From Candidatus Methylomirabilota bacterium (GTDB lineage Bacteria > Methylomirabilota > Methylomirabilia > Rokubacteriales > CSP1-6), in the NCBI GenBank assembly GCA_035709005.1, contig DASTFB010000008.1, forward strand, positions 62,001 through 126,000: 64,000 nucleotides of DNA, read 5' to 3'. Position 1 is the stretch's first letter; each line of letters opens with the position of its first letter. Below, piece by piece: positions 2,512-33,063 of this stretch. The translations under genes and the position numbers were made by a program. The notes under the pieces are model-generated. The model did not search any database. It was not told the origin of the DNA and was given only the letters and a program-made list of their open reading frames with translations.

Positions 2512-3660
2512 TCAGCCGGCTCGGGCCAGCGGGCGCGGGGCCGGGCCGACGTACTCCGCCCGCGGCCGGATGAGTCGGTTGTCGGCGAACTGCTCCAGCG
2601 CGTGGGCGCACCAGCCGGCCACGCGGCCTGCCGCGAAGACCGAAGTACAGAAGTCGGGCGGGAGCTCGAGCGCGTCGTAGACCACCGCCGAGAAGAAGTC
2701 CACGTTCACCGGCAACGCCGTGCGCGCGCGCATGGCCTGGTACACGCCCTCGGCGACCTCGAAGAGCCGCGCCCGGCCCGTCGCCGCCGCCATGGCCTGC
2801 GCCATCGAGCGCAGCACGCGGGCCCGCGCGTCGTCGACGCGGTACACGCGGTGACCGAACCCGGGGATGCGGGCGCGGGGGTCGCTGCGCTCGCGCCGGC
2901 CCAGCGCCGCGTGAGCGCCGAGCCGGGTGGCGACGAACGCCTCGGCCCGGCCGGGATCGCCGATGTCGCGCAGCATGGCCAGGACGTCCTCGTTGGCGCC
3001 GCCGTGGCGAGGGCCCTTGAGCGTGGCCACCGCCGCCGTCACGGCCGCGTGGAGGTCGGCCAGGGTGGCGACGGCCACGCGCAGGGCGAACGTGGAGGCG
3101 TTGAACTCGTGGTCGGCGTGCAAGGTGAGCACGACGTCGATCACCCGCTCGACCTCGGGCGACGGCCATTCCCCGCGCAGCAGATAGAGGAAGTGGGCGG
3201 CGTGGGAGCCTTCGCGCCGGGCCGGGACGATCTCGCGCCCGGCCCGGATCCGCTGCCAGGCGGCCACCGTCTCCGGCACCAGGTTCATGAGCCGGACCGC
3301 CTTTCTCAGGTTGGCCTCGGAGTCGCCGGCCCGCGCGTCCGGATCCACGCTGGCCGCCAGGGAAACCGCCGTCCGCAGAGCGTCGAGCGGATGGGTATCC
3401 CGGGGCAGCGAGCGCAGCAGATCGGCCACCGCAGCGGGTAGCCCGCGCGCGGCGGCCAGGCGCTGCCGGAACTCGGTGGCCGGCGTCGTGAGCTCGCCGA
3501 GCCACAGGAGCGCGGTGACGTCCTCGAAGGGCACGGCCCCGGCCAGCTCGCCGATCTCGTACCCGCGGTAGTAGAGCCGCCCGGCTGCGCCGTCCACCTG
3601 ACAGATGGCCGAGCGCGCAGCGATCACGTCCTCCAGACCCGTCTTCCACTCTGCCGCCAT
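2512..3660 (-). CDS. Citrate synthase / 2-methylcitrate synthase family enzyme
   Basis: Condenses oxaloacetate with acetyl-CoA or propionyl-CoA. The 382-residue single-domain form is the size of type I and methylcitrate enzymes. Visible are the N-terminal GLEDVIAARSAICQVDGAAG..LYYRGYEI start, the HADHEFNAS segment with the active-site His, and PGFGHRVYRVDDARA with the second His. The catalytic Asp region follows (LPVNVDFFSAVVYDAL). The ATG at 3660 follows GGGAGGGACG; a longer reading from 3744 has no such site. Citrate versus methylcitrate cannot be decided by eye. The divergent neighbour encodes an HTH module like the one found fused in front of some citrate synthases. Confidence 0.92.
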   Translation of the reverse strand: MAAEWKTGLEDVIAARSAICQVDGAAGRLYYRGYEIGELAGAVPFEDVTALLWLGELTTPATEFRQRLAAARGLPAAVADLLRSLPRDTHPLDALRTAVSLAASVDPDARAGDSEANLRKAVRLMNLVPETVAAWQRIRAGREIVPARREGSHAAHFLYLLRGEWPSPEVERVIDVVLTLHADHEFNASTFALRVAVATLADLHAAVTAAVATLKGPRHGGANEDVLAMLRDIGDPGRAEAFVATRLGAHAALGRRERSDPRARIPGFGHRVYRVDDARARVLRSMAQAMAAATGRARLFEVAEGVYQAMRARTALPVNVDFFSAVVYDALELPPDFCTSVFAAGRVAGWCAHALEQFADNRLIRPRAEYVGPAPRPLARAG

Positions 3661-3792
3661 CGTCGTCCCTCCCCCGGCCGGCATCCTGGCGTGACGCCCC
3701 GCCGGCGACCGTGGCTCTATATTACATGATTTATATTGATACAACAGTACTCGGATGGACCTGGGGCCCGGTCCCTGGTACGGTGGGACGCG
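3661..3792. promoter_or_regulatory. Divergent promoter region with AT-rich core
   Basis: This 132-bp spacer separates the citrate synthase and HTH genes. It holds the most AT-rich stretch noticed nearby, at about 3716-3747 (TATATTACATGATTTATATT within it), an obvious candidate for regulator binding and promoter melting. For the rightward gene, TGGACC (3756-3761), 17 bp and TACGGT (3779-3784) form a plausible promoter ending 8 bases before the ATG at 3793. For the leftward gene TAATAT lies inside the AT-rich core. Binding by the HTH product is inference. Confidence 0.5.
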
Positions 3793-4056
3793 ATGGTCGT
3801 CCTCGAGGGGGAGGAGTTCCTGACGGTGAAAGAGGCCGCCCGCCTGCTGGGGATCAAGCCCGCCACCCTCTACGCCTACGTGAGCCGGGGCGTGCTGCGC
3901 AGCTACCGGCAGGGGATCAAGCGCCAGCGACTGTACCGGCGCGCGGAGGTCGAGGGGCTGCTCCGGCTGGCCCCGAGCGGCGGGCGCAGCGCCGGGAAGG
4001 TCCGGCGCCGGCGGCCGGTAGACATCCCGCTCGCCGAGTCCTGGATCCGGGACTGA
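3793..4056 (+). CDS. Small helix-turn-helix (excisionase/MerR-type) DNA-binding protein
   Basis: An 87-residue protein. Residues 9-50 (FLTVKEAARLLGIKPATL then YAYVSRGVLRSYR) form a winged HTH of the excisionase/MerR-like class; a basic linker and VDIPLAESWIRD end follow. This HTH type, including the phrase ATLYAYVSRG, resembles the N-terminal module fused to certain bacterial citrate synthases. Here it stands alone, divergent from a citrate synthase, so it may regulate that gene. No Shine-Dalgarno is seen; a -10-like TACGGT 8 bases upstream suggests a leaderless message. The link to citrate synthase is inference. Confidence 0.8.
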   Translation: MVVLEGEEFLTVKEAARLLGIKPATLYAYVSRGVLRSYRQGIKRQRLYRRAEVEGLLRLAPSGGRSAGKVRRRRPVDIPLAESWIRD

Positions 4057-4066
4057 AAACGCGCCG

Positions 4067-5017
4067 ATGAAGCTGGGCGCCTACATCATCCCGGGGCGCG
4101 ACGTGCCGGCCGCCGTCGCGCTGGTCGCGCGCGCCGAGGCGCTCGGGTATGAGAGCGTCTGGGTCACGCACGGTCTGGGCCGGGACTCCTTCCTCGTGCT
4201 CCAGGCGTACGGCGCGGCCACCACGCGAATTGGCCTGGGCAACGGGGTCGTGCCCATCTATCCTCGCCATCCCGTGGCGATGGCGCAGGCCGCCCTCACC
4301 CTGGCCGAGGCCACCCAGGAGCGCTTCCGGCTCGGCATCGGCGTGAGCCACCGCGCCTCCATGGAAGCGATGCTGGGTCTGAGCCTGCAGGAGCCGCTGG
4401 CGGTGATGCGCGAGTACGTCGCCGTCCTGCGCGGCGCCCTGGGGGCGGGCGCCGCGTTCGCGGGGAAGCACTTCCGCGTGCGCTGGAGCATGGGGCTCCC
4501 CGTCCGCCCACAGGCTCCGCCCGTGCTGCTGGCGGCGCTGTCTCCGCGCATGCTGGAGCTGGCCGGGGAGATCGCCGACGGTGTCGTGCTCTGGCTCACC
4601 CCGCCCGGGTACGTGCGCGACGTGGCCGTGCCCGCGCTCGAGCGCGGGCGCCGGCGGGCCGGCAAGACGCTGGACGGATTCGAGATCGTGGCCGCGGTGC
4701 CCCTGGCCATCACCCACGACCACACCGCCGCGCTGGCCGCCTTCCGCGCCGAGCTCACGCGCTACCTCGAGCAGCCCTTCTACCGCGCCATGCTGGCGCG
4801 CGCGGGGTTCGCCGCGGCGCTGGCACAGTTCGACCGCGACGGCCAGCCCCCCGTCGAGCTGGCCCAGGCGCTGGGCGCCGTGGGCGGGGCCGAGGCGGCC
4901 CACGCCTACGTCCAGGCCTACCGGGAGGCCGGGGTGACCCTGCCGGCGGTGCGCCCGGTCACCTTTCCCGACGCGCCGTGGTACCAGCCGACCCTGGAGG
5001 CGGCCGCGGGATGGTGA
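4067..5017 (+). CDS. LLM-class flavin/F420-dependent oxidoreductase
   Basis: A 316-residue luciferase-like TIM-barrel enzyme. Family features include the start MKLGAYI, AEALGYESVWVTHGLGRDSF, the core strand RIGLGNGVVPIYPRHPVAMAQAALTLAEAT, and RFRLGIGVSHRASMEAMLG. These resemble F420-dependent members more than classical FMN monooxygenases, but the cofactor is not provable here. The substrate is unknown. It lies 10 bases after the HTH gene and its stop overlaps the next ATG (ATGGTGA), so the three genes probably form one operon. Confidence 0.88.
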   Translation: MKLGAYIIPGRDVPAAVALVARAEALGYESVWVTHGLGRDSFLVLQAYGAATTRIGLGNGVVPIYPRHPVAMAQAALTLAEATQERFRLGIGVSHRASMEAMLGLSLQEPLAVMREYVAVLRGALGAGAAFAGKHFRVRWSMGLPVRPQAPPVLLAALSPRMLELAGEIADGVVLWLTPPGYVRDVAVPALERGRRRAGKTLDGFEIVAAVPLAITHDHTAALAAFRAELTRYLEQPFYRAMLARAGFAAALAQFDRDGQPPVELAQALGAVGGAEAAHAYVQAYREAGVTLPAVRPVTFPDAPWYQPTLEAAAGW

Positions 5018-5712
5018 GGGCCGGGTGGCTGTCGCTGGCGGCCCTGCTCGTCGCCTGCTCCTCGCAACCGAACGCCGCGGGCGGCCTTCCCGCCGAGCCC
5101 GGAGCCGAAGTCCGCTACGTGGCGCTGGGTGACAGCACGGTCGAGGGGGTCGGGGCCAGCCGCCGCGAGCTCAATTACGTGAGCCGCATCCACGCCCGGT
5201 TGCGCGAGCGATACCCGGCCGCCGTGATGCGGAATCTGGGCGTGGGCGGCGCCACCTCCGCCGACGTGCGCGACCGGCAGCTTCACCCCGCCGTCGAGTT
5301 CCGCCCTCACCTGGTCACGCTCTCGGTCGGCCCCAACGACATCACGCAGGGCGTGTCCGTCCAGCAGTACGAGCGCAACGTGCGGACGACCCTCGAGACG
5401 CTGTCCCGGAACACCCCGGCCGTGATCGTGGTCAACCTCCTGCCCGATCTCGGCGTGACCGGGCGCTTTCGCGGCAGCCCGCACGCCGAGCGGGTCACCC
5501 GGTTGTCGGTGGAGTTCAACGGGGCGCTCCGGCGAGCCGCCGGGCGGTACGGCACCGAGCTGGTGGACCTCTACACGGCCAGCCGGCAGGAGGTCCCCCG
5601 GCACCCCGAGCTCCTGTCCCGAGATGGGTATCACCCCTCCGACGCCGGCTACGCGCGGTGGGCCGAGCTCATGTGGCGGGGCATCGAGAAGAGGATGAAC
5701 CGCGGCGGCTGA
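5011..5712 (+). CDS. SGNH/GDSL-family hydrolase, lipoprotein
   Basis: A 233-residue secreted esterase/lipase-like enzyme. The start at 5011 gives a lipoprotein signal with lipobox LVAC (Cys16). SGNH blocks are complete: GDSTVEGVG (nucleophile Ser), VGGATSADV (Gly), VGPNDIT (Asn), and DGYHPSDAGYARWA (Asp and His). The nearest described class is the SGNH hydrolases such as TesA/arylesterases. It overlaps the end of the LLM oxidoreductase by 7 bases, implying translational coupling. The anchored location and catalytic residues are seen; the substrate is unknown. Confidence 0.9.
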   Translation: MVRAGWLSLAALLVACSSQPNAAGGLPAEPGAEVRYVALGDSTVEGVGASRRELNYVSRIHARLRERYPAAVMRNLGVGGATSADVRDRQLHPAVEFRPHLVTLSVGPNDITQGVSVQQYERNVRTTLETLSRNTPAVIVVNLLPDLGVTGRFRGSPHAERVTRLSVEFNGALRRAAGRYGTELVDLYTASRQEVPRHPELLSRDGYHPSDAGYARWAELMWRGIEKRMNRGG

Positions 5713-5742
5713 GGGCGGCCCGCCCACCCCCAGGAGATCACC

Positions 5743-6468
5743 ATGGAGTGGCTCAGCACCGACGGCCTCATCGCGCTGATCGCGCTCACCGCGATGGAGA
5801 TCGTTCTCGGCATCGACAACATCGTCTTCATCACCATCCTCACCGGCCGCCTGCCGCCGTCGCAGCGGTCGCTGGGCCGGCGCCTGGGGCTGGCATTCGC
5901 GCTGGGCACCCGGATCGTCCTGCTGTTCGCCATCACCTGGATCATGGGACTCACTGCGCCCCTCTTCACCCTGCTCGGGCGCGCGATCTCCGCGCGCGAC
6001 CTGATCCTGCTCGCCGGCGGCCTCTTCCTCATCTTCAAGGCCACCCACGAGATCTACGAGAAGGTCGAGGCCGACGAGCCGCACCGGCGCGGCGGCGATC
6101 GAGCCGGGCTGATCTGGGTGGTGGCCCAGATCGCCGTGATCGACCTCGTCTTCTCGCTGGACTCGGTGATCACCGCCGTGGGCATGGCCGAGCACCTCAT
6201 CACCATGGTGATCGCCGTGGTCATCGCCATGATCGTGATGATGCTGGCCATCAACTCGGTGAGCGGCTTCGTGGAGCGGCATCCCAGCGTGAAGATCCTG
6301 GCCCTGGCCTTTCTGCTCCTCATCGGGGTGATGCTGGTCGCCGAGGGCATGGGCCGGCACGTCGAGAAGGGCTACATCTACTCGGCCATGGCGTTCTCGC
6401 TCTTCGTGGAGATGCTCAACCTGCGCTACCGGGGCCATCGCCGGCGCTTGCGGGCCCAGCGCGCGTAA
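5743..6468 (+). CDS. TerC-family integral membrane protein
   Basis: A 241-residue polytopic protein of the TerC/Alx/YkoY family, implicated in metal (manganese or tellurite) handling and in cofactor supply to exported proteins. Family signatures are plain: the first helix carries ALTAMEIVLGIDNIVFI with acidic residues inside the membrane, and IAVIDLVFSLDSVITAVGMAE repeats the pattern, both conserved in TerC. About seven membrane segments are visible. A good AGGAGATC ribosome site precedes the ATG. Its last 53 bases overlap the 3' end of the convergent acetyltransferase gene. Confidence 0.93.
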   Translation: MEWLSTDGLIALIALTAMEIVLGIDNIVFITILTGRLPPSQRSLGRRLGLAFALGTRIVLLFAITWIMGLTAPLFTLLGRAISARDLILLAGGLFLIFKATHEIYEKVEADEPHRRGGDRAGLIWVVAQIAVIDLVFSLDSVITAVGMAEHLITMVIAVVIAMIVMMLAINSVSGFVERHPSVKILALAFLLLIGVMLVAEGMGRHVEKGYIYSAMAFSLFVEMLNLRYRGHRRRLRAQRA

Positions 6469-22127: not shown

Positions 22128-22271
22128 GCGCTCAGCCTTCCACCACCACCACCAGGGGCGCCATCGGCTCCCGCGCCGCAACTCAGCGTCTTTCCTGCCT
22201 TCTCCCTTGGCATCCGCCGTGCGTTAGACAAGGCCGCTCGCGCCTGTAGCGCGAGTGAAAGCGGGGAAGCC

Positions 22272-22796
22272 ATGAACGAAGCGAGTTGGCGCGGTGTTCG
22301 CGGGCCTCTGCCGTTCGGGGCACTGGCCATCGCCGTCGTCCTCAGTGCGCTCGCGATCGTCGAGGCACTGGGCGGTCAGGCTCGACCAGAACCCGACCCG
22401 CCCTGGGTGGCGCATCTGCAGGCGATGGACGACGCTCTCGCCGCGGGGGACCGTCGAGTCGCCGACTGGGCCCTGCGCGAGGCCCACTGGGCGGCGCTCG
22501 GGAGCCGGCGGTGGGAGGGGATGATCGAGGTCGGCGATGCGGCGCGGCGCGCCGGGAACATCACCGTCGCGCGCACGGCGTACATGACGGCGGCCTTCCG
22601 GGCGCGACGGCTCCGCTCGCTCGAGGGCATCCTGAGCGCCGCCCAGGCGTTCGCCGGGCTCGGGGATCGGGAAGCGGCCCAGCAGTGGCTGAGCGTCGCT
22701 ACGGAGCTGGCGAAGCCGAGCGAGAGCGGGCTGGCCCGGGTGCGGACGGTCGGCGAGAATCTCCACCGCCGGGCCTTCGCCGGGGAGCGGCCGTGA
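22272..22796 (+). CDS. Membrane-anchored helical-repeat (TPR-like) protein, unknown function
   Basis: A 174-residue protein: one membrane helix at about residues 15-35 (LPFGALAIAVVLSALAIVEAL), then alanine-rich helical pairs (MDDALAAGDRRVADWALREA, VGDAARRAGNITVARTAYMT and AQAFAGLGDREAAQQWLSVA) with TPR-like spacing. GGGGAAGCC precedes the ATG. It lies upstream of the protease/ATP-grasp cluster, but a strong promoter (22810) starts after it, so it may be a separate unit. About 144 bases before it (22128-22271) hold no gene that I can see. Confidence 0.75.
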   Translation: MNEASWRGVRGPLPFGALAIAVVLSALAIVEALGGQARPEPDPPWVAHLQAMDDALAAGDRRVADWALREAHWAALGSRRWEGMIEVGDAARRAGNITVARTAYMTAAFRARRLRSLEGILSAAQAFAGLGDREAAQQWLSVATELAKPSESGLARVRTVGENLHRRAFAGERP

Positions 22797-22809
22797 TGCC
22801 CCGTGCGTG

Positions 22810-22838
22810 TTGACATCACCCGATGCCGCGCCTAGAGT
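22810..22838 (+). promoter_or_regulatory. Strong sigma-70-like promoter of the protease/ATP-grasp cluster
   Basis: TTGACA at 22810-22815 and TAGAGT at 22833-22838 with a 17-bp spacer. The expected start of transcription is near 22845. That lies downstream of the ATG at 22823 and so points to the ATG at 22853 (or GTG 22850) as the real start of the small protein. The same TTGACA-17-TAGAGT arrangement recurs before the ATP-grasp gene. Confidence 0.75.
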
Positions 22839-22852
22839 CCGACTTTCTGGTG

Positions 22853-23068
22853 ATGGAATCACCGGGCACGTGCGACGGCGGCAGCGAGCGCCCGGACCGA
22901 GCAGCGCGGCCTGAGCCGGGCCAGGACGCGCCGCCGGCCGAGCGAATCAGCATCAGCGGCCTGGACCAGCAGTCGGCCGAGGCCCTGAGGATCGCGGTCA
23001 CGCGTCTGGCAAAGCGATTTGGCCTGGAGGTTCGAGCGGAGGTCCGCGAAGAGCCGTCCCCGGAATGA
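22853..23068 (+). CDS. Small beta-alpha-beta protein A, paralogue of the cluster's last microprotein
   Basis: A 71-residue protein (81 if started at 22823, which the promoter argues against). The N-terminal half is acidic/proline-rich and probably disordered; the C-terminal 40 residues read ISISGLDQQSAEALRIAV then TRLAKRFGLEV, a strand-helix-strand pattern. This module recurs at 28712-28846 with AEALRI, RLA, RFGLE in common. The stop overlaps the amidohydrolase ATG (ATGA). I recognise no family; roles as a binding subunit, substrate or regulator are all open. Confidence 0.7.
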   Translation: MESPGTCDGGSERPDRAARPEPGQDAPPAERISISGLDQQSAEALRIAVTRLAKRFGLEVRAEVREEPSPE

Positions 23069-24306
23069 GCCTCGCCTCCGACTACGACCTGATCGTGCGC
23101 GGTGGCCGGGTCATCGACCCGGAGCAAGGCCTGAACGCCGTCCTCGACGTCGCCGTCCGCGACAACCGCATCGCGGCGGTCGCTCCGCACATCGCCGGCG
23201 GCCCCCGAACGCACGTGCTCGACGCCACGGACTGCCTGGTGACGCCGGCGGTCATCGATCACCACGTCCACTGCTTCGAGCACTTCACCGACATGGGCGT
23301 GCATGCGGATGTCGTCGGCGTCGGCCAGGGGGTCAGCGCGGTGGTCGAACAGGGGACGGTCGGCGCGGCGACGTTCCCCGCGTTTCGCAACTTCATCGTT
23401 CGGCCGGCGAAGACCGACGTGCTCTGCTACCTCTCGGTCCACGTGGCCGGAGACCCCAAGGGCGGGCAGCACGACCTGCACAGCCCCGACACGGCGAACG
23501 TGAAACGGACGGTGCAGGTGTGCCGCGACTACCCCGATCTCGTGCGCGGGATCAAGGCCCACGCCGAGCTGGGCCTGTATTCCCGGTGGGGAACCAAGCC
23601 ACTGGCGCTGGCCAAGCTGGCCGCCATGGAAGCCGGCGTGCCTCTGGCTGCCCACATCGGAAACCTGTTCAAAGCCGCCAGGCCGGCGAGCGATTCCCCG
23701 GACGACGCCCTCCGCGACTCCCTGACCCTGCTCGACCCCGGCGACATCCTGGTGCATCCCTACACCAACAACCCTGGGGGCCTGCTCGACGAGCACGGCA
23801 AGGTCAAGCCCGAGGTGCGCGACGCGTACGCCGGCGGTGTGCTCTTCGATCTGGCGCACGGGACTCACTTCAACCTGGAAACGGCGCGGCGGGCATTCGA
23901 CGAGGGCTTGACGCCACACATCATCAGCAGCGACGCCCACCATGAGGTCCACGGCGAGCGGCGGGTGGCCTGGGGCACGAGACATCTGACCTATACGCTG
24001 TGGGGGGCTATCGCCAAGATGATGGCCCTCGGGATGACGGTCGAGGACGTGGTCAGGATGACGACCAGCACCCCGGCTCGGGTGCTTCGCCAGGAGGACC
24101 GCCGGGGCAGTCTCCGCGTGGGCATGCCGGCCGACATCTCTGTTCTTCGTCTCCACACCGGCGCCTGGCTGCTCCGTGACGGCCGCGGCCACACGATTCG
24201 GGCCGATCGCTGCCTGCTGCCCCGCCATCTCATCCGACCGGGGCCGGTCCACCAGGTCACCGACGACATCCCCGTCGACCTGGCCGAGGCGCGTTTGTCG
24301 GCTTAA
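23065..24306 (+). CDS. Dihydroorotase/deacetylase-type metallohydrolase
   Basis: A 413-residue amidohydrolase-superfamily enzyme resembling the amidohydrolase/deacetylase (EF_0837-like) group. Seen are DYDLIVRGGRVIDPEQGLN, DHHVHCFEHF (HxH metal motif), GIKAHAELGLYSRWG (Lys region), PLAAHIGN (His), VHPYTNNPGG, and HIISSDAHHEV (Asp). These enzymes open cyclic amides or deacylate N-acyl amino compounds. Translationally coupled on both sides within the cluster: ATGA overlap upstream and a GGAGGAGG-led protease gene 31 bases downstream. The substrate is unknown. Confidence 0.88.
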   Translation: MSLASDYDLIVRGGRVIDPEQGLNAVLDVAVRDNRIAAVAPHIAGGPRTHVLDATDCLVTPAVIDHHVHCFEHFTDMGVHADVVGVGQGVSAVVEQGTVGAATFPAFRNFIVRPAKTDVLCYLSVHVAGDPKGGQHDLHSPDTANVKRTVQVCRDYPDLVRGIKAHAELGLYSRWGTKPLALAKLAAMEAGVPLAAHIGNLFKAARPASDSPDDALRDSLTLLDPGDILVHPYTNNPGGLLDEHGKVKPEVRDAYAGGVLFDLAHGTHFNLETARRAFDEGLTPHIISSDAHHEVHGERRVAWGTRHLTYTLWGAIAKMMALGMTVEDVVRMTTSTPARVLRQEDRRGSLRVGMPADISVLRLHTGAWLLRDGRGHTIRADRCLLPRHLIRPGPVHQVTDDIPVDLAEARLSA

Positions 24307-24337
24307 ACGGGCGCCGCCCGCCCGGAGGAGGTACATC

Positions 24338-27300
24338 ATGCCGCGCAAAGGGACTCGCCGTACTGGGCCCTCGACCGAGCGGCGCCCGAACCGCCACAAG
24401 CTCGATGGCCGCTTGCAATTTCTTCTGTCCCTGCCCGCCGAGCGGCTCAGCGAGCTGCGGGGGGCGGAAACCCGGCGGCTCCACGAGGTCGCGGCCGAAC
24501 TCCGCGAGGCCCGAATGGCCGTCGAGAGGGAAGAGAGCGAAGCGGGAAAATCGCGGGCCCGCGAACGGCTCCAGGCTGCCGAAAGACGGCGCTTCGCTCC
24601 GCTCACGACCGGCTTCCATGTGCCTGACGGCTCCGCCGGCGTGCCGCCCGCTCGATTTTCCGAGCCGTTCGTGTCGGCATTCATTCTGAGCGATGCCGGC
24701 ACCGCGGATCTCGAGGACATGGGGGTGCAGGTGCGCAGCCGGGTCGGCGACGTCTTCACGGCGTTCGTACCCGTATCGGCCATCGCCCGGCTGGAGGCGT
24801 CCGCGGTCATCCGCTATGTGGAGCTGGCTCGACCAGTCTTTCCCGCCCTGAACCAGGCCGTTCCCTACGCCCAGATCGATACCCTTCACAACGCCACCCC
24901 CGCCGTCACCGGGGCCGGCGTCGTGGTGGGTATCGTCGATCTGGAGATTCTTGACATTTACCATGACGACTTCCGGACAGCGACCGGCGCCACACGCGTG
25001 TTGTGGCTGTGGGACCAGAGGTTGGATGCGGCAGACAAGGACCTCGTTGAGGAAGCTCCGCCGGCGGTCACCGGTCTGTCGGCAAGCTACGGCGTCGAAT
25101 ACGACCAGACGACGATCGATACGGAGCTGAACCATCCGGCGGTGACGCCCGCCTACAGGATCGTCAGGCACGGCGGCGACGTGGCCTCCCACGGCACGTT
25201 CGTCGCCGGCATCGCTGCCGGAAACGGGCGGGCTCAGTCGGGGACTTTCGTGGGCGCGGCGCCCGAAGCCGACATCATCTACGTACGCCTGTTCGAACCA
25301 ACCCGCACGGATATCTTCGCGGACAGCGCCTACGTCGCCGACGCCTTTCATTACATCTTCAGTCGGGCGGGCAGCCGGCCGTGCGTCGTCAACATGAGCG
25401 CCACGGACGATCTCGGGCCCCACGACGGCTCCGCCCTCGGCGAGCGGCACCTCGACGAGTTCCTGACGGTCCCGGGTCGCGCCATCACGGTGGCCGCGGG
25501 CAATTCGAACCTCAACGCGTCCCACGCCGCCGGGACGGTGGCGCCGGGGGGTGTTACGACTCTGACCCTCCACTACGTGGGGGGAGCCGTGAACGGTGAC
25601 ACCGCGGAAATCTGGTACGACGGCCACGATCAGTTCACGGTGACGGTGACGGCGCCGACCAGCCCTCCCGTGACCGTCTCATCCGTCGCGCCGAACACGA
25701 CCGACAGCACGCCCTTGCCGGGCGGCGGTACGCTCCGGGTCAGTTCGACCCAGGATGATCCGCGCAACCATGACAACGTCATCACCATCATCATCGAGCC
25801 GGGACCGAACCAGCAGATCCCCCCGGGCGACTGGACGGTTCGGCTGACCGGTACGGTGGTGATCAACGGGACCTTCCACGCCTGGGTCGATCGCAACAAT
25901 CGCGACCAGTCCTGGTGGGAGCTCCCGCACGTCCAGGAGAATCAGTGCACGCTCGGCACACCGGCCACGGCCCGGCGCGTCATCGCGGTCGGCAACCACG
26001 ACACCTCCGGTCCGCCGCCCGCGCTCGATCAGCTCAGTGGCCGGGGCCCGAGCCGGGACGGCCGCGTCGAGCCCGAGATCGCGGCCGTGGGCAGCATGAT
26101 GGCGCCCCGGTCCCGCAATCAGAACGCGCTCTTCGGCAGCCCGTACGACTGGGGGTCGGGCACCAGCCGGGCGGCGCCGCTCGTGGCCGGGGCGTGCGCG
26201 CTGCTTTTCCAGTGCCGCGGCGCCAGCGCCACCTGGGCCAACCTCAAGCAGATCCTGGAGAACACGGCCGGCCCGACGAGCACGGCCATCCCGCACGCCG
26301 GGTTCGGCTTCGGCACCCTGCGCGTGGCCAACGCCTGCGCGGTGGCGGCGCCGGCGACCGACGTCTGGCTGCGCGACGACCTCACCGACACCGGAATCGA
26401 GCCGTTCACCGGGCCGGTCGCGTGGCTCAGCCCGGACATCGAGATTCTCGACACCGCCGGTACCCCGGTGGCCAATCCGAGCTTCCATCCGACGAACCGC
26501 TTCAACAACCTCGTCCGGGTGACTGTTCGCAATCGCGGCACCCAGCCTGCCCGCAACACGGAGGTCTTTCTGTACTGGGCCGATCCCGCGACGAACATCC
26601 CGTATCCCTCGGCCTGGAGTGCCTCGGGTATCTACACCGGCGCGCCGAACTTCACGACGCAGGGAAATGTGGCGGTGATCCCGCTGCTGGCCCCGGGCGC
26701 GTCGACGCAGGTCCAGTTCGCCTGGGCGCCGCCGGCGCCGGGATCGAACCTGCGCCAGGACAACCACTTCTGTTTGCTGGTGCGGGTCGAGAACGAAGCT
26801 GACCCGTCGGGGGTCGGGGCCGGCGGCTGGTCGCCGATCACCGCACGCAACAACATCGCGCTCCGCAACGTCCTGGTTCAGCCGGTAGCGTCCGGCATGG
26901 CCTTTTACATCGTGGGGTCCGCCGATCACGACAGCCTCATCATCCGTCCCCAGGACGCGGAGATCGTTCTCGACATCCCGATCGCCGCCTTGCCCTGGCG
27001 GGATCGCCGGCTGCTCGAGCGGCACGGCCCGCGCCCGCCGTACGGTCTGCGGGCGGCCGATCCGTTGCGGGCCGTGAAGACGGTGTTGAAGGGGCCGGAC
27101 GCCGAGGAGCGTATCGATGTCGTCGGCGCGACGGCCCTGGAAGTGCATGACGGAATCGCCCGGATCCGGGCCATGCCCGAGCGAGCGCTGGTGCTGCGAT
27201 CCCTCCGGCTGATCGAGGGCGCCCGCATGCCAGCGCGGCTGCACGTGCAGGCTCGGACCGATGCCGGCCCCCGGTTCGTCCACGTGGCCCAGTACTCCGG

Positions 27301-27364
27301 CGGCCAGCTCCTCGGCGGGGTCTCGCTGCAATTCGGCCCGACCGTGGAAGGGCGGCGCGCTTGA
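24338..27364 (+). CDS. Large subtilisin-family (S8) protease with inserted and C-terminal beta domains
   Basis: A 1008-residue protein behind a strong GGAGGAGG site. The N-terminus is basic with no signal peptide, so it is apparently cytoplasmic; residues 30-85 form a charged helix. The S8 triad is complete: Asp201 (VVVGIVDLEI), His285 (ASHGTFVAGIAAG), Ser610 (GSGTSRAAPLVAG), with oxyanion Asn389 (AAGNSN). A roughly 120-residue beta domain (about 400-525) is inserted between Asn and Ser. Residues about 690-800 look like a CARDB adhesion domain (LVRVTVRNRGTQPARNTEVF), and a further C-terminal domain is unassigned. Probable processing protease of the cluster (inference). Confidence 0.9.
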   Translation: MPRKGTRRTGPSTERRPNRHKLDGRLQFLLSLPAERLSELRGAETRRLHEVAAELREARMAVEREESEAGKSRARERLQAAERRRFAPLTTGFHVPDGSAGVPPARFSEPFVSAFILSDAGTADLEDMGVQVRSRVGDVFTAFVPVSAIARLEASAVIRYVELARPVFPALNQAVPYAQIDTLHNATPAVTGAGVVVGIVDLEILDIYHDDFRTATGATRVLWLWDQRLDAADKDLVEEAPPAVTGLSASYGVEYDQTTIDTELNHPAVTPAYRIVRHGGDVASHGTFVAGIAAGNGRAQSGTFVGAAPEADIIYVRLFEPTRTDIFADSAYVADAFHYIFSRAGSRPCVVNMSATDDLGPHDGSALGERHLDEFLTVPGRAITVAAGNSNLNASHAAGTVAPGGVTTLTLHYVGGAVNGDTAEIWYDGHDQFTVTVTAPTSPPVTVSSVAPNTTDSTPLPGGGTLRVSSTQDDPRNHDNVITIIIEPGPNQQIPPGDWTVRLTGTVVINGTFHAWVDRNNRDQSWWELPHVQENQCTLGTPATARRVIAVGNHDTSGPPPALDQLSGRGPSRDGRVEPEIAAVGSMMAPRSRNQNALFGSPYDWGSGTSRAAPLVAGACALLFQCRGASATWANLKQILENTAGPTSTAIPHAGFGFGTLRVANACAVAAPATDVWLRDDLTDTGIEPFTGPVAWLSPDIEILDTAGTPVANPSFHPTNRFNNLVRVTVRNRGTQPARNTEVFLYWADPATNIPYPSAWSASGIYTGAPNFTTQGNVAVIPLLAPGASTQVQFAWAPPAPGSNLRQDNHFCLLVRVENEADPSGVGAGGWSPITARNNIALRNVLVQPVASGMAFYIVGSADHDSLIIRPQDAEIVLDIPIAALPWRDRRLLERHGPRPPYGLRAADPLRAVKTVLKGPDAEERIDVVGATALEVHDGIARIRAMPERALVLRSLRLIEGARMPARLHVQARTDAGPRFVHVAQYSGGQLLGGVSLQFGPTVEGRRA

Positions 27365-27389
27365 CAGCGCAGGGCCCGGGACCTAGAGT
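27361..27389 (+). promoter_or_regulatory. Internal promoter of the ATP-grasp/microprotein unit
   Basis: TTGACA at 27361-27366, 17-bp spacer, TAGAGT at 27384-27389, the same boxes and spacing as at 22810. The -35 box overlaps the protease stop codon (TTGACA contains the TGA). Transcription should begin near 27396, 13 bases before the ATG at 27409, so a TTG start at 27361 for the ligase is unlikely. Confidence 0.72.
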
Positions 27390-27408
27390 TCCGCCCGCCG
27401 AGAGCGAC

Positions 27409-28530
27409 ATGCAAGCACGAGTGGTCGTCAATCGCGCGGGAAGCGGCGCTGCCAACAATCTGATCCGGAGTCTCCGCGCCGGCGGCCGGCCCGTGTACGT
27501 CATCGGGTGCCATCACGATCCGTTCGTCCTCCGGAAGTCGGCGGCCGACGCCAATTGCCTGGTGCCACGAGTCGGCCACCAGCACTTCACGGAGGCGCTG
27601 TGTCGGGTGATCCGGAACGAGCGGGCCGATCTGTTCCTGCCGCATACCGACGACGACGTCGAGCTCGCCTCCCGGCTCCGAGAAGCGCTTCCCTGCCGGG
27701 TGTTCCTGCCGCCTCCCGACGTCATCGAGCTGTGCCAGGACAAGTATCGGCTGAACACGTGGCTGGCCGCCCGCGGCGTGCCGGTCCCGTTGACGTACCC
27801 GGTGACGCCGCCAAGCCCCGTGGAGGAAGTCTTCGCTCGGCTGGCGCCACGCTCACCGCTCTGGTGTCGCGTGCGGACCGGGAGCGGCTCCGTCGGCGCC
27901 ACGCCGGTCCGAACGGTAGAGCAGGCCCGAGCCTGGATCAGCTACTGGCAGGACATGCGGGGCGTCCCGCCGGACGCCTTTGTGCTCTCGGAGTACCTGC
28001 CGGGTCGGGATTTCGCCTGTCAGATGCTGTGGCGGTCGGGCGTGCCCGTGCTGACGAAGACCTGCGAGCGCCTGTCCTATTTCGGCGGCGCCGGCCGTCC
28101 CAGCGGGGTGTCGTCGGTGGCCGCGCTGGCCAAGACGGTGTACGAACCGGGTGTCCGCGACATCTGCGTCGCCGCCATCCGCGCCCTCGGCGCCGATGTC
28201 TCTGGCGCCTTCAGTGTTGATCTCAAGGAGGATGCCTTCGGCCTGCCCCGGATCACCGAGATCAACGCCGGGCGCTTCATCACCATGATGAACCTGTTCG
28301 ATTTCACCGGGAAACGCAGCATGACGGCGACCTACGTCGCCCTGGCCCTTGGGGAACCGGTCGACGGGGGCGATGACTACGACGTGGACGAGGAGCACTA
28401 CTTCATGCGTGATGTGGATACCGTGCCGGCGATCTTTCACGCCGACGAGCTGTTCATGGGGATCGCGGATGCGCGATGGCCGGCGACCGAGCGGGCCATG
28501 ACCATCAGCAGGCAGGAGGAGCCGCGATGA
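27409..28530 (+). CDS. ATP-grasp ligase, carbamoyl-phosphate-synthase-like
   Basis: A 373-residue ATP-grasp protein. The N-terminal nucleotide-fold starts directly with RVVVNRAGSGAANNLIRSLR; then come HTDDDVELASRLREAL, the PreATP helix CQDKYRLNTWLAARGVPVP, the ATP loop region WCRVRTGSGSVGAT, LSEYLPGRDFACQML, and the metal-binding end FSVDLKEDAFGLPRITEINAGRF. Such enzymes make carboxylate-amine or related bonds with ATP. A start at ATG 27409 is chosen because the promoter at 27361 ends just upstream. It overlaps the next microprotein by ATGA, which hints that the small protein is its partner or substrate (inference). Confidence 0.88.
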   Translation: MQARVVVNRAGSGAANNLIRSLRAGGRPVYVIGCHHDPFVLRKSAADANCLVPRVGHQHFTEALCRVIRNERADLFLPHTDDDVELASRLREALPCRVFLPPPDVIELCQDKYRLNTWLAARGVPVPLTYPVTPPSPVEEVFARLAPRSPLWCRVRTGSGSVGATPVRTVEQARAWISYWQDMRGVPPDAFVLSEYLPGRDFACQMLWRSGVPVLTKTCERLSYFGGAGRPSGVSSVAALAKTVYEPGVRDICVAAIRALGADVSGAFSVDLKEDAFGLPRITEINAGRFITMMNLFDFTGKRSMTATYVALALGEPVDGGDDYDVDEEHYFMRDVDTVPAIFHADELFMGIADARWPATERAMTISRQEEPR

Positions 28531-28700
28531 GCGACGACCAGCCCGGCAGTGGTGTAACGCACTCCGTAACCGTCACGATTCCTCCACCCACAGGAGGATG
28601 GAATCCCACGACATGGGCACAGTTCAAGCAGGCGGTGAAGGCGCTCGCGACGCAGTATCAGGGCCAGGTGACCGAAATGACGTTCGAGACCAAGAAGTAA
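28527..28700 (+). CDS. 57-residue microprotein B, candidate partner or substrate of the ATP-grasp ligase
   Basis: The sequence has a strand (THSVTVTIPPP), a loop with GGWNPTTW, a helix (AQFKQAVKALATQYQG) and a final strand ending in a lysine pair (MTFETKK). This beta-alpha-beta outline resembles the module in proteins A and C, without clear identity. ATG overlaps the ligase stop (ATGA), the classic arrangement for a co-translated partner. No leader/core cleavage site typical of known ribosomal peptides is recognised. Coding is supported by the overlap and the amphipathic pattern. Confidence 0.68.
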   Translation: MSDDQPGSGVTHSVTVTIPPPTGGWNPTTWAQFKQAVKALATQYQGQVTEMTFETKK

Positions 28701-28711
28701 GCGCGGCCATC

Positions 28712-28846
28712 GTGAGTGTGGCGGTCGACGTCGACCGCCACGGCGCTGAGGCGCTGCGCATCGAGCTCATTCGGCTGGCCCGGCGCTTCGGTCTGGAGCC
28801 GACCGGGAGCCGGGTAGAGGCAGGAGGGCCGCAGCCAGGCGCCTGA
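28712..28846 (+). CDS. 44-residue microprotein C, paralogue of small protein A
   Basis: Starting at a GTG at 28712, 11 bases after microprotein B, the frame reads VSVAVDVDRHGAEALRIELI then RLARRFGLEP. It aligns without gaps with the C-terminal half of protein A: AEALRI, RLA, RFGLE identical, with K/R and I/V changes in between. The frame is open further upstream (to 28598) but that part overlaps protein B and looks like a shadow. The ribosome site is weak, so the exact start is uncertain; the paralogy is the main evidence for its being real. Confidence 0.62.
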   Translation: MSVAVDVDRHGAEALRIELIRLARRFGLEPTGSRVEAGGPQPGA

Positions 28847-28861
28847 GCAGCCCGGCCGAGC

Positions 28862-31800
28862 CTACGTCGGCTGCAGGAGCTGCATGTCCATCTCGCCGGC
28901 CATCGTTCGGGCCGCCGACATGTGCTCCCTGGCCTCGGCTCGGGCACCGGCCCGCTCGAGGAGCAGGCCCAGGCCCAGGCGGCAAGAGGCGGTCAGCGGC
29001 CGCATCTCGAGCTCCCGGGCCAGGGCCAAGGCGGCTTGATAGCTCGCCGCGGCGGCCTCCCGGCGTTCCGGACGATCCTGGCGCGACTCGATGTCCCCCA
29101 GGAGCTGAAGGGCGTGGGCTTCGTGACCGCGCTCGTGGTGCTCCCGGGCGAGGGCCAGGGCCTGTTGCCCCACGTCTCTGGCATCCTCGCTGAAGCCGCC
29201 CAGCAGGTACACGCGCCCGAGGGCGGCCAGACGGTTGGACTGCCCAGCCGTTCTCCGCATCGAGGCGTGCTGCGATACCGCCTTCTTGATGAGCACGATG
29301 GCGTCCTCGACTCGTCCGGATAGTGCGTAGCTCAGGCCCAGGTCGGAGGCCGTCGCCGGGGAGAAATAGGGAATCCCCCGCGCTTCACTCAGCTCCAGCC
29401 CGCGCTCCAGGATCGGCACGGCACGAATCAGATCACCTTTCTGGAGGTACGCCCGGCCCAGACCCCAGCAGCCGAGGACGAGGCTGATGGCATCGTCGGC
29501 GCTCTCCGCGATCGTCACCGCTTCCTCGGCGACGGCGATGGCCCGGGCGAAGTCGCCGAGCTCGGCCAGGCACAGGGCGAGCCAGGTGCGCGAATGCACG
29601 GAGGGCAGGTAGGGGAACCCCATGTGCTGCGGAGCGAGATCACCGTGCAGCAGCGCGACATTGCTGGCCAAGAGCTCGGACGCGGCCCGATACTCGCCGA
29701 GGGCGTGGTCGACGTGGGCCATATAGGTCCGCGCGGCGACCAGGAGCGGCGGCTCGCCGACCTCGTCGGCCTGGGTCATGGCCAGCCGTCCCGACTCGAG
29801 GGCCCGACGGTATTCGCCCATCTGGCGAAAGTAGTCCGTCAGGTACACGTTGATCCACGCCAGCCGCCGGCGATCGCCCAGCGCCACCGCGAGCGGGCGG
29901 ACCCGTTCCAGCTTGTCGAAGATCGCGGCGAACTCGCCCAGCGGGAGGAGGGAGTTTCGCAGCTGCAACGTGATGTCGACCGCCGCCTCGCGCGTCTGTG
30001 GGGTCTCCGGCACGTGGGCGAGCGCCGCCAGCGCCTGGTCCAGGCAGGCTGCGGCCTCGCGATGGGCGCAGGCGACGGCCGCCTGTCGACCAGCCTGGCG
30101 TAGATAGTCCGCCGCCTTCGCCCACAGTCCACCTTGATAGGCGTGATGCGCGAGGCGCTGGCTCTGCTCGACCAGCCGCTGTGGATAGAGATCCTCCATC
30201 ACGTCCACGATGCGGGCGTGCAGGAACCGGCGCAGGTCGGGGTCGAGGCTCTCGTAGGCGACCTCGTGCGTCAGGATATGCCTGAACGTGTATTCGCTTT
30301 CCGCACCGAGGCTGGTCTCATAGAGGAACTCCCCAGCCCGCAGCTCGGCCATGCCCGCGCTCAGGTCGTCCGGAGCGATCCCCGCCACGCGCTCGAGCAG
30401 CGAGACGGGCACGTCCTTGCCGAGCACCGCCGCGGTCTGGAGCAGCTGCCGCGCCGACGGCGGCAGCCGGTTGATACGGGCCTGCAGCACCTCTTGCACC
30501 GTGTCGGGCACGGCGAGCGGGGGCGCCGTCACCCGCTGCTCCCGGACGCTCCGGGTGAGCTCTTCGAGGAAGAACGGGTTGCCTTCGGCCTTGCCGAGAA
30601 TGGCGTCCACGACGGCGGGACCGACGTCATACGAGCCGAGGAGCGCGCGAACGACGCTCAGGCTCTCCGCCGGGGGTAAAGGCTGGAGGGCCATCTGCGT
30701 GGCGTAGGATTTGTCGATCCAGGTCGGCCGGTACCCGGGTCGGTAGGTGGCGACCAGCACGATACGGGCGCTCGGGATGGCCTCCACCATCGACGTGAAG
30801 AGCTCCTCCGACGACTCGTCGATCCAGTGCAGGTCCTCCAGAACCAGCACGAGAGGGCATTGCTGGCTCTGGCGGAGGGTCAGCTCGCGCAGCGCGCCGA
30901 AGATCCGGGCTTTGAAGGCTTCGGGGCTCAGCCCCCCAACCCGATCGTCGCCGTCCTTCAACCCAAGGAGATGAAGCAGATACGGCGCGCGCTCGCTAGG
31001 GTCCATGCCGAGGCGATACAGGACGGTACGCACCTTCTCCGCCGCGACGTCGGGCGCGTCGGTGCGCGCGATGCGGCACGTGATCCGCAGCATGTCGAGG
31101 ACCGGGAGGTACGGAATCCCGCTGGCGTAGGACAGGCACTGGCCCTGGAGATACTCGACCTGCTGACCGGCCAGGTGATGACGCAGCTCGAGGAGCAGAC
31201 GGGATTTCCCGATGCCGGCATCGCCGGCGATGCCGACCACCTGACCGCGGCCGCTCGCGGCCGCGGCGAAGCGACTTCGGAGCAGCTCGAGCTCGTGCTG
31301 GCGGCCCACGAAGGTCGCCAAGCGACGCCGGAGCCCGAGGCCGGCCCGCTCACCCGCCCCGAGATGAAACGCGTGTCCCTCCGGCGTCGGCGTGAGGTCG
31401 AAGTTGCGGCGGAGGAACGGCGCGGTCGCCTCGCTCACCACCACCTCGTCCGGCCTGGCCGTCTCCAGGAGGGAATCCAGAAACGCCCAGGCGTGGGGCC
31501 GCGCTTCCAGCTCGATGGCCGGCCCCGGGCCGAGATTCACCAGAAACTGGTCGACGTGGATGGCGACCTTGACCTGGACCTGCCGGGCTTCGTCCCGCCG
31601 GGCCCGCTCCACCGCATTCAACGCGGCGATGGCGGCGTGCGCCGCCCTGGCGGGCGCGTCCTCGACCGGCTCCACCCCGAACACGGCCACCATTCCGGCC
31701 GCATTGACGTCCTCCACCCTGCCGCCGAACACGCGAACTTTGTCGCTCAACAGCGCGAGCGTTCGCCGACCCAGGGCCGAGCCCTCGGCGCCGGCCGGAA

Positions 31801-32914
31801 TGAGGAGCACGACACGTAGCAGCGTGACACGACGGTGCGCCCGGGCGGGGACACCGGGAACGACAGCGGCCGGCTCGGGCGGCGCCGCTTCGCGGGCCGG
31901 GACGGGCCGCCGGCCCCGCCGCGACGGCGCTGCCGCGCCCGGTCGCAGGCGGTGCTTCTCGATGCGGTATCGCAACGTGTTGCGCGAGATGCCGAGCCGA
32001 GCCGCGGCCTGGCTCACGTTCCAGTTCGTCGCCGTCAGCGCATCGAGCAGGGTCGCCCGCTCCACGTCGTCGACGGCCGCTTCCAGCGTGACCGGGGCCG
32101 TTGGCGGCGAGGGCGCCGGCGCCGGGCGGCTCTCCGGCAGGGCCAGCGCGGCGGCGCCGACCTCGCGGCTGGCGTCGAGCAACGCCACGCGCTCCATGAC
32201 GTTGCTCAGCTCACGGACGTTGCCCGGCCAGGCATAGCGGACCAGCGCACCCCGCGCGTCGGCGCCGAGCGTCTTGGCGGGCAAGCCATAGTCGGCGCAG
32301 GCGCGGGCCAGAAAGTGCTCGGCCAGCAGCAAGACATCGCCCCGGCGGTCTCGCAGCGCCGGCAGCGAGAGGGTGACAACGGCAAGCCGATGATAGAGGT
32401 CGGCGCGAAACCGTCGCGTCGAGACGGCGGCGGTCAGATCCTCATTGGTCGCGGCCACCACCCAGACATCGATGGGCTCGCTGCGAGTGCCGCCCAGCCG
32501 GCGGACTTCCCGTTCCTCGATGACCTTGAGGAGCTTGGCCTGCAGGGCCTCGGGCAGGAGCCCGATCTCGTCCAGAAAGATGGTGCCCCGGTGGGCGAGT
32601 TGAAAGAGGCCGGGCCGGGACTGTCGCGCGTCCGTGAAGGCGCCCCGCTCGACGCCGAACATCTCGGCCTCCAGCAATGTCTCGGGGATGGCCGCACAGT
32701 TGACGTCGACGAACGGCCCGCTGGCACGCACGCTGGCCGAGTGCATCGCGCGGGCGACCAGCCCCTTGCCGGTACCGGTCTCTCCCTGAATGAGAATCGG
32801 GGGTAATCGACGGGCTTCGGCCTGGCGTTTCAGAAGCCCCCGGACCTGCTCGCGAACTGCCACGATCTCGGGACTCGTCCCGAGCAGTTGGGCCAGGGGA
32901 TCCATGCCGAGCAT
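28862..32914 (-). CDS. Chimeric regulator: sigma-54 AAA+ activator, Fis HTH, cyclase-like domain, AAA ATPase and TPR array
   Basis: A 1350-residue cytoplasmic protein. Residues 12-250 form a sigma-54 activator AAA+ domain: Walker A GETGTGKG at 44-51, Walker B TIFLDEIG, GNVREL. The sigma-54 contact loop reads GAFTDA instead of GAFTGA. Residues about 283-322 are a Fis-type HTH (NWNVSQAAARLGISRNTLRY). Residues about 362-520 resemble a degenerate nucleotide-cyclase domain. A second ATPase follows from about 534 (TFVGRQHELELL, GDAGIGKS, LVLVLEDLHWID), then TPR-like repeats to the C-terminus. Starts at ATG 32914 or 32905. Convergent with the microprotein unit, 15 bases apart. Confidence 0.9.
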   Translation of the reverse strand: MLGMDPLAQLLGTSPEIVAVREQVRGLLKRQAEARRLPPILIQGETGTGKGLVARAMHSASVRASGPFVDVNCAAIPETLLEAEMFGVERGAFTDARQSRPGLFQLAHRGTIFLDEIGLLPEALQAKLLKVIEEREVRRLGGTRSEPIDVWVVAATNEDLTAAVSTRRFRADLYHRLAVVTLSLPALRDRRGDVLLLAEHFLARACADYGLPAKTLGADARGALVRYAWPGNVRELSNVMERVALLDASREVGAAALALPESRPAPAPSPPTAPVTLEAAVDDVERATLLDALTATNWNVSQAAARLGISRNTLRYRIEKHRLRPGAAAPSRRGRRPVPAREAAPPEPAAVVPGVPARAHRRVTLLRVVLLIPAGAEGSALGRRTLALLSDKVRVFGGRVEDVNAAGMVAVFGVEPVEDAPARAAHAAIAALNAVERARRDEARQVQVKVAIHVDQFLVNLGPGPAIELEARPHAWAFLDSLLETARPDEVVVSEATAPFLRRNFDLTPTPEGHAFHLGAGERAGLGLRRRLATFVGRQHELELLRSRFAAAASGRGQVVGIAGDAGIGKSRLLLELRHHLAGQQVEYLQGQCLSYASGIPYLPVLDMLRITCRIARTDAPDVAAEKVRTVLYRLGMDPSERAPYLLHLLGLKDGDDRVGGLSPEAFKARIFGALRELTLRQSQQCPLVLVLEDLHWIDESSEELFTSMVEAIPSARIVLVATYRPGYRPTWIDKSYATQMALQPLPPAESLSVVRALLGSYDVGPAVVDAILGKAEGNPFFLEELTRSVREQRVTAPPLAVPDTVQEVLQARINRLPPSARQLLQTAAVLGKDVPVSLLERVAGIAPDDLSAGMAELRAGEFLYETSLGAESEYTFRHILTHEVAYESLDPDLRRFLHARIVDVMEDLYPQRLVEQSQRLAHHAYQGGLWAKAADYLRQAGRQAAVACAHREAAACLDQALAALAHVPETPQTREAAVDITLQLRNSLLPLGEFAAIFDKLERVRPLAVALGDRRRLAWINVYLTDYFRQMGEYRRALESGRLAMTQADEVGEPPLLVAARTYMAHVDHALGEYRAASELLASNVALLHGDLAPQHMGFPYLPSVHSRTWLALCLAELGDFARAIAVAEEAVTIAESADDAISLVLGCWGLGRAYLQKGDLIRAVPILERGLELSEARGIPYFSPATASDLGLSYALSGRVEDAIVLIKKAVSQHASMRRTAGQSNRLAALGRVYLLGGFSEDARDVGQQALALAREHHERGHEAHALQLLGDIESRQDRPERREAAAASYQAALALARELEMRPLTASCRLGLGLLLERAGARAEAREHMSAARTMAGEMDMQLLQPT

Positions 32915-33063
32915 GGTACTGTCCCCAACCCGACTGCTCAAGATTCCACCACCACCAGCCGGACCGGGACAGCCCGCAACGCCGTCGATGATGTGGGTAT
33001 GCGACCGATCTCGCGCGTCCTGTAAATCGCCGACGGCATTGGCGCCGAGGGCCGGCGGCCGGC

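Follow-up and report, generated by a model that had tools for sequence, protein, structure and literature searches.

The locus studied here lies in a 64,000-nucleotide window (the whole stretch of DNA that was analysed) of contig DASTFB010000008.1 from a Candidatus Methylomirabilota bacterium. Six genes follow each other on the forward strand (Table 1), encoding the small protein sp1, an amidohydrolase, a subtilase, an ATP-grasp ligase (LIG) and the microproteins mA and mB, and the initial annotation had taken them for one peptide- or protein-modification system. All six frames were confirmed as coding, and part of that proposal stands: LIG, mA and mB are co-inherited, and unrelated peptidase families occur in the slot before LIG. 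The six-gene composition, however, is not fixed. The amidohydrolase, the subtilase and sp1, a paralogue of mB, adjoin LIG in the window genome only, and a fixed six-gene system was therefore rejected. The strict unit is small, comprising three genes and a peptidase, and its conserved neighbour is a gene outside the original set, c1, which encodes an AAA/TPR protein. LIG and two microproteins, often with a peptidase, are present together in about one third of the sampled genomes, which points to an as yet uncharacterised system for the addition and removal of amino acids on a protein or peptide.

Table 1. Features of the locus, in window coordinates.
Feature	Position	Strand	Remarks
10.9 kb block	22128-33063		missing, with its flanks retained, from four relatives
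c2, small helical TPR-like protein, 174 aa	22272-22796	+	cluster c2 adjoins the cassette in 18 loci; no Pfam match
P1, sigma70-like promoter TTGACA-N17-TAGAGT	22810-22838	+	
sp1, mB paralogue with N-terminal extension	22853-23068	+	open reading frame opens at 22823; likely start ATG 22853, downstream of P1
Amidohydrolase, PRK09237/NF006689-like	23065-24306	+	genome-specific passenger of the block
S8 subtilase, cytoplasmic-type, C-terminal CARDB-like region	24338-27364	+	sits in the M4-like peptidase slot
P2, sigma70-like promoter TTGACA-N17-TAGAGT	27361-27389	+	ahead of LIG
LIG, ATP-grasp ligase, carbamoyl-phosphate-synthase-like / PylC / L-amino-acid-ligase type	27409-28530	+	
mA, 57-aa microprotein	28527-28700	+	ATGA overlap with LIG; ribosome-binding site GGAGGA
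mB, 44-aa microprotein	28712-28846	+	GTG start
c1, large convergent AAA/TPR protein	28862-32914	-	tail-to-tail with mB

Co-occurrence was counted in 95 genomes of the phylum (Methylomirabilota), mostly metagenome bins, with small genes annotated manually and by an in-house gene finder; the scan of genome contigs reached close relatives only, and sampling beyond the phylum was poor. The ligase search gave 13 loci from genome contigs and 31 copies across 29 of the 95 genomes. The window genome is Rokubacteria-like, and most of the nearest ligase relatives belong to Rokubacteria bins. The genomes with mB are precisely the 29 with LIG; each gene has 31 copies, and the window has one extra mB copy, sp1. 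Gene order had been singled out for checking: LIG-mA-mB followed by convergent c1 is kept in 29 of the 30 loci where it could be assessed (in L072 the contig stops within LIG), but the front genes sp1, amidohydrolase and subtilase are not part of this order. The one exception, L075, has LIG and mB and lacks mA and c1. mB and c1 mostly overlap at their stop codons, by 3-8 nucleotides. The evolutionary distances of LIG, mA, mB, c1 and the M4-like peptidase c5 correlate with each other (r 0.51-0.94; Mantel 0/500), although shared ancestry alone can produce such a correlation.

The cassette is also lost as a unit. In G040, G042, G044 and G064 the window flanks are kept (to one side, genes of the acyl-CoA dehydrogenase, CoA-transferase and DinB-like types; to the other, c243/c27, c6 and c7) and the entire 10.9 kb block is absent, as examined at the DNA-level junction. 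Similarly, a comparable block is present in G039 but missing from its relative G038, and G036 retains a decayed cassette (L109:3851-4400) in which the last ~19 residues of LIG, an open mA frame, c1 and c2 are kept and mB is gone. Because the block is missing between the same flanks in relatives, the cassette is an accessory chromosomal unit of Rokubacteria and their relatives; the window copy holds sp1, the amidohydrolase and the subtilase as three extra genes. LIG and mA were also found in a Hyphomicrobiales bin, G095 (L011:5444-6837), on a short contig that stops before any mB, and this is presumably due to transfer or mis-binning. Two samples of genomes around G095, of 298 and 399, each gave a single positive, G095 itself.

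The initial annotation had described the ligase as an amide-forming ATP-grasp enzyme, and structure prediction agrees. The LIG model (mean predicted local distance difference test score 82.8, predicted template modelling score 0.82) has the fold of the ATP-grasp superfamily of carboxylate-amine ligases, with carbamoyl-phosphate-synthase-like 2pn1 as best fold match (E 1.1e-17), followed by biotin carboxylases, GAR synthetase, the L-amino acid ligases 3vot and 4wd3, and PylC (4ffl). The Asp/Glu/Asn pattern of ATP-grasp metal ligands is present as D271, E284 and N286, which are invariant among 11 homologues. Sequence matches are weak (PylC-like_N, ATP-grasp_3 and PRK12767-type carbamoyl-phosphate-synthase-like), the strongest being to carbamoyl-phosphate-synthase-like proteins (NF009402, 6e-19; also 2pn1); with Pfam PylC-like_N, LIG scores 18.1 bits, under the gathering cut-off of 27, and no pylB or pylD was found beside LIG as far as the neighbours are annotated. 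A comparison with peptide-modifying ATP-grasp families had also been proposed, and it gave no RimK or graspetide membership: no Pfam RimK model matched, and NCBIfam rimK_fam reached E 6e-4, far under its cut-off. Two unusual LIG relatives are worth recording. A viral contig (L045:2773-3810) encodes a relative with 38% identity, flanked by a 76-aa protein on one side and a portal-like protein of 682 aa on the other, in surroundings that look like a phage structural block. In L060 (8201-9631, LIG on the + strand) the LIG stop codon is lost, giving in-frame read-through to mB; this is either a genuine gene fusion or the result of misassembly.

The small frames are conserved at the protein level, which the initial annotation had made a test of its proposal. 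In close pairs the ratio of nonsynonymous to synonymous polymorphism (pN/pS) is 0.24-0.36 for mA and 0.26-0.46 for mB, leaving aside the nearly identical pair L064/L065 (0 and 0.2, respectively), and both microproteins are under purifying selection. mA has a strong ribosome-binding site in most loci. The view that the small proteins bracketing the six genes are paralogues is borne out, with a single mB profile detecting both mB and sp1 in the window genome (4.5e-17 and 3.4e-15). Since the mA and mB profiles also match each other (hhalign P-value 3.3e-6), these two are probably distant paralogues. They share a beta-alpha-beta-like pattern; the strands of mB are unconfirmed, because its AlphaFold model gives one helix only. 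No family was matched by mA, mB or sp1 in searches of Pfam, NCBIfam and PADLOC models, or by mA and mB in PHROGs. Assignment of mB as a STAS domain was rejected: its resemblance to SpoIIAA is limited to residues 7-26 (E 0.025), and mB is too short.

The gene before LIG is often a peptidase. The most frequent type, c5, is a putative M4-like zinc peptidase of ~410 aa found in 16 genomes, all of which carry LIG (16/16; chance probability 1.2e-10, a hypergeometric figure that, like the Mantel figures, takes no account of kinship). Every copy lies directly 5' of LIG; of 15 loci measured, nine have a 4-nucleotide overlap between the two genes. The motif HExxH...ExxxD is kept in 15/15 loci inspected, and the match to Pfam M4 is marginal (22.1 bits against a cut-off of 22.4). 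In the window the slot holds the subtilase (Pfam S8, 5.4e-30; a C-terminal CARDB match is borderline), which had been recognised as a large serine protease without a signal peptide. Its S8 motifs are indeed intact (VGIVDLEI at residue 197, SHGTFVAG at 284 and GTSRAAP at 608), and an N-terminal signal sequence is absent as judged by eye. No close homologue of it was found elsewhere in the phylum, and it is possibly a chance neighbour of LIG. In L074 a reprolysin-like peptidase gene lies between LIG and mA. Most simply, these loci can be read as LIG-mA-mB having a peptidase as a frequent, interchangeable partner. The protein encoded before LIG in L048 (8131-8898, LIG on the + strand) has 255 aa, contains a SHELVE motif, matches no Pfam family and may be a further type of zinc peptidase. 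A second subtilase, suspected in L051 from tblastn, was rejected: the gene, interrupted by runs of N and sharing an ATGA overlap with LIG, encodes a repeat protein that is similar to the window subtilase in its C-terminal region (BLASTP 3e-7).

The amidohydrolase, first described as a deacetylase-type, amide-hydrolysing enzyme, belongs to that class by Pfam PF01979 (Amidohydro_1, 4.5e-12), and its closest NCBIfam model is NF006689 (E 1.4e-101, under that model's cut-off). Relatives occur in 28 genomes of the phylum, on separate contigs or elsewhere, and never beside LIG. c1 combines an AAA+ domain of the sigma54-activator type, in which GAFTDA replaces GAFTGA in every full-length copy, with a Fis-type helix-turn-helix, a degenerate cyclase-like region, AAA_16 and TPRs. 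The cyclase-like region of the window copy lacks the usual catalytic motif, so that class III cyclase activity was rejected for it; only L047, L064 and L065 have this motif, in an intact-looking form and instead of the sigma54-type domain. Control of the cassette by a sigma54-type AAA protein was likewise rejected, with a strict sigma54 site upstream in none of 31 loci and sigma70-like sites in ten. c2, which in the window sits at the left-hand edge of the block and in other loci is usually divergent from c1, is not a cassette marker, because it is present in 43 of the 95 genomes, many of them without LIG.

Starts and stops had been said to overlap mostly; they do so at two of the five junctions only, both through ATGA (sp1/amidohydrolase, 23065-23068, and LIG/mA, 28527-28530), the other three being gaps of 31, 44 and 11 nucleotides. 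The second of these overlaps was already noted for the ligase, but its partner is mA and not the mB paralogue named there. Position 22810, where the six-gene stretch had been made to begin, falls on the first nucleotide of the P1 -35 box, and no start codon is found there. Sites with the hexamers and spacing of P1 occur twice against 0.4 expected from shuffles, and sigma70-like sites are found in ten of 31 LIG loci against 0.16 expected; in L066, L071 and L073 they precede the M4-like gene, and in the seven others LIG itself. Because the P1 site recurs, as P2, just before LIG, the six genes probably form two transcription units, sp1-amidohydrolase-subtilase and LIG-mA-mB.

What might the cassette do? 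Our preferred reading, which we hold tentatively, is that ligase and peptidase form a "write and trim" module for protein or peptide modification, with mA and mB as adaptors or substrates, resembling RimK-RimB but outside that family. Beyond gene content and active-site conservation, we infer the steps as follows. From its enzyme class, LIG is predicted to modify a protein or peptide: with ATP it would turn a carboxylate into an acyl phosphate, which an amine would attack to give an amide bond, most likely adding amino acids. mA and mB may pair with LIG or, most likely, with each other, and would either present the substrate or be the substrate. The presumably co-transcribed cytoplasmic peptidase, usually the M4-like zincin and in the window the subtilase, could trim or remove what LIG adds, or release the peptide for modification, and c1 may sense or regulate. 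Several observations weigh against this scheme. Around ten loci are without a recognised peptidase adjoining LIG, and in L051 the gene before LIG (2671-5766) encodes a repeat (beta-propeller-like) protein and not a peptidase. The fold matches of LIG take in the non-peptide enzymes GAR synthetase and biotin carboxylase. In neither mA nor mB is the C-terminus invariant or an acceptor residue evident, and mB is modelled as a single helix.

The fold matches lead to the strongest alternative, possible but rather unlikely, in which LIG makes a small metabolite (a dipeptide or amino-acid conjugate, BacD/BL00235-like, or a PylC-type product), with mA and mB as regulatory subunits and the peptidase supplying amino acids. 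The nearest folds to LIG are those of L-amino acid ligases, PylC and GAR synthetase, and the strongest sequence matches of LIG are carbamoyl-phosphate-synthase-like, 2pn1 among them, all of which would fit. The neighbourhood comparison, however, gave no transporter or other biosynthetic gene conserved beside LIG, and two conserved microproteins with swapped peptidases are atypical of small-metabolite ligases. More ambitiously, mA and mB could be a heterodimeric carrier or modifier to which LIG attaches amino acids and from which the swappable peptidase trims them. This would be a new tagging system unrelated to ubiquitin, Pup, LysW and RimK, and we regard it as unlikely.

We also think it quite unlikely that the locus encodes a pathway like those for ribosomally synthesised and post-translationally modified peptides, in which mB and/or mA would be precursors with a conserved helix leader and a variable tail core, modified by LIG and cut by the peptidase. 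Such an arrangement has parallels in graspetide branches 7 and 8, and mB tails do vary; this variation, however, is partly dictated by the overlap with c1, LIG is not of the RimK/graspetide type, the mA and mB alignments contain neither a GG site nor a repeated core, and the loci have no exporter. An anti-phage or stress defence module, with c1 as ATPase sensor and the peptidase as effector, is improbable. Patchy presence, block loss, swapped peptidases and a large NTPase with TPRs would suit it, but PADLOC models match window proteins only as a generic subtilase and a weak IetS, the promoters are sigma70-like sites near consensus, and the cassette was lost at one ancestral site and not spread on mobile elements, the two weak plasmid matches being only ~26% identical. 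That ordinary metabolic genes are merely adjacent is true of the amidohydrolase and sp1 and may be true of the subtilase, but is very improbable for the core, where the shared gene order (29/30), the LIG/mB co-occurrence and the peptidase linkage (16/16) contradict it.

On the write-and-trim reading, the cassette would bear on ligase-peptidase pairs as a recurring and poorly understood route to protein marking or peptide making, and the unrelated enzymes in the peptidase slot amount to a natural experiment on the role required of the peptidase. mA and mB are two microprotein families without a database match, paired with a ligase outside the RimK family, and the cassette offers a first point of entry into microprotein function in an uncultured phylum, a little-known group of soil and groundwater bacteria.

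The initial annotation knew of no named system of this composition, and our literature search, outside of which most subscription papers fall, gave no description of one. Parts of the cassette do have counterparts. LIG shares its fold and ATP-grasp active-site pattern with PylC, the L-amino acid ligases and 2pn1, which are stand-alone enzymes without microproteins, and LIG is without pylB/pylD neighbours. In the LysX/ArgX-LysW amino-group carrier system, an ATP-grasp ligase stands beside a carrier protein of ~50 aa, much as in the cassette, but the mA and mB sequences have neither a zinc ribbon nor a conserved C-terminal EDWGE-like acceptor. In Pseudomonas, the ligase RimK, to which RimB binds and which it regulates, attaches glutamates to RpsF, and in both RimK-RimB (RimABK) and RloA-RloB-RloC an ATP-grasp protein and a peptidase share an operon (PMC12239564). 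LIG differs from RimK in being carbamoyl-phosphate-synthase/PylC-like, the cassette peptidases are M4-like, S8 or reprolysin-like whereas theirs is aspartic (retropepsin-like), and neither system has a counterpart of the two microproteins and the convergent AAA/TPR gene. Likewise, in graspetide branches 7 and 8 the ATP-grasp gene is accompanied by peptidases from several unrelated families, and a precursor has not been recognised (PMC8939145). Their ATP-grasp family is another one, however, their YscW homologue and truncated ATP-grasp were not seen in cassette loci, and the cassette, with its two conserved microproteins, has no RimK-like graspetide ligase and no leader with a repeated acidic/Ser/Thr core in mA or mB. 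The Anbu operon (ATP-grasp, alpha-E, transglutaminase-like protein and proteasome-like Anbu) is a further conserved operon that links an ATP-grasp protein to a protease-fold protein, although every partner family differs from those of the cassette (PMC6376114). ATP-grasp with peptidase is thus a known theme, represented by RimK-RimB, Rlo, Anbu and graspetide branches 7 and 8, while the microprotein pair, this ligase family and the convergent AAA/TPR gene together form, as far as the searched literature shows, a new combination.

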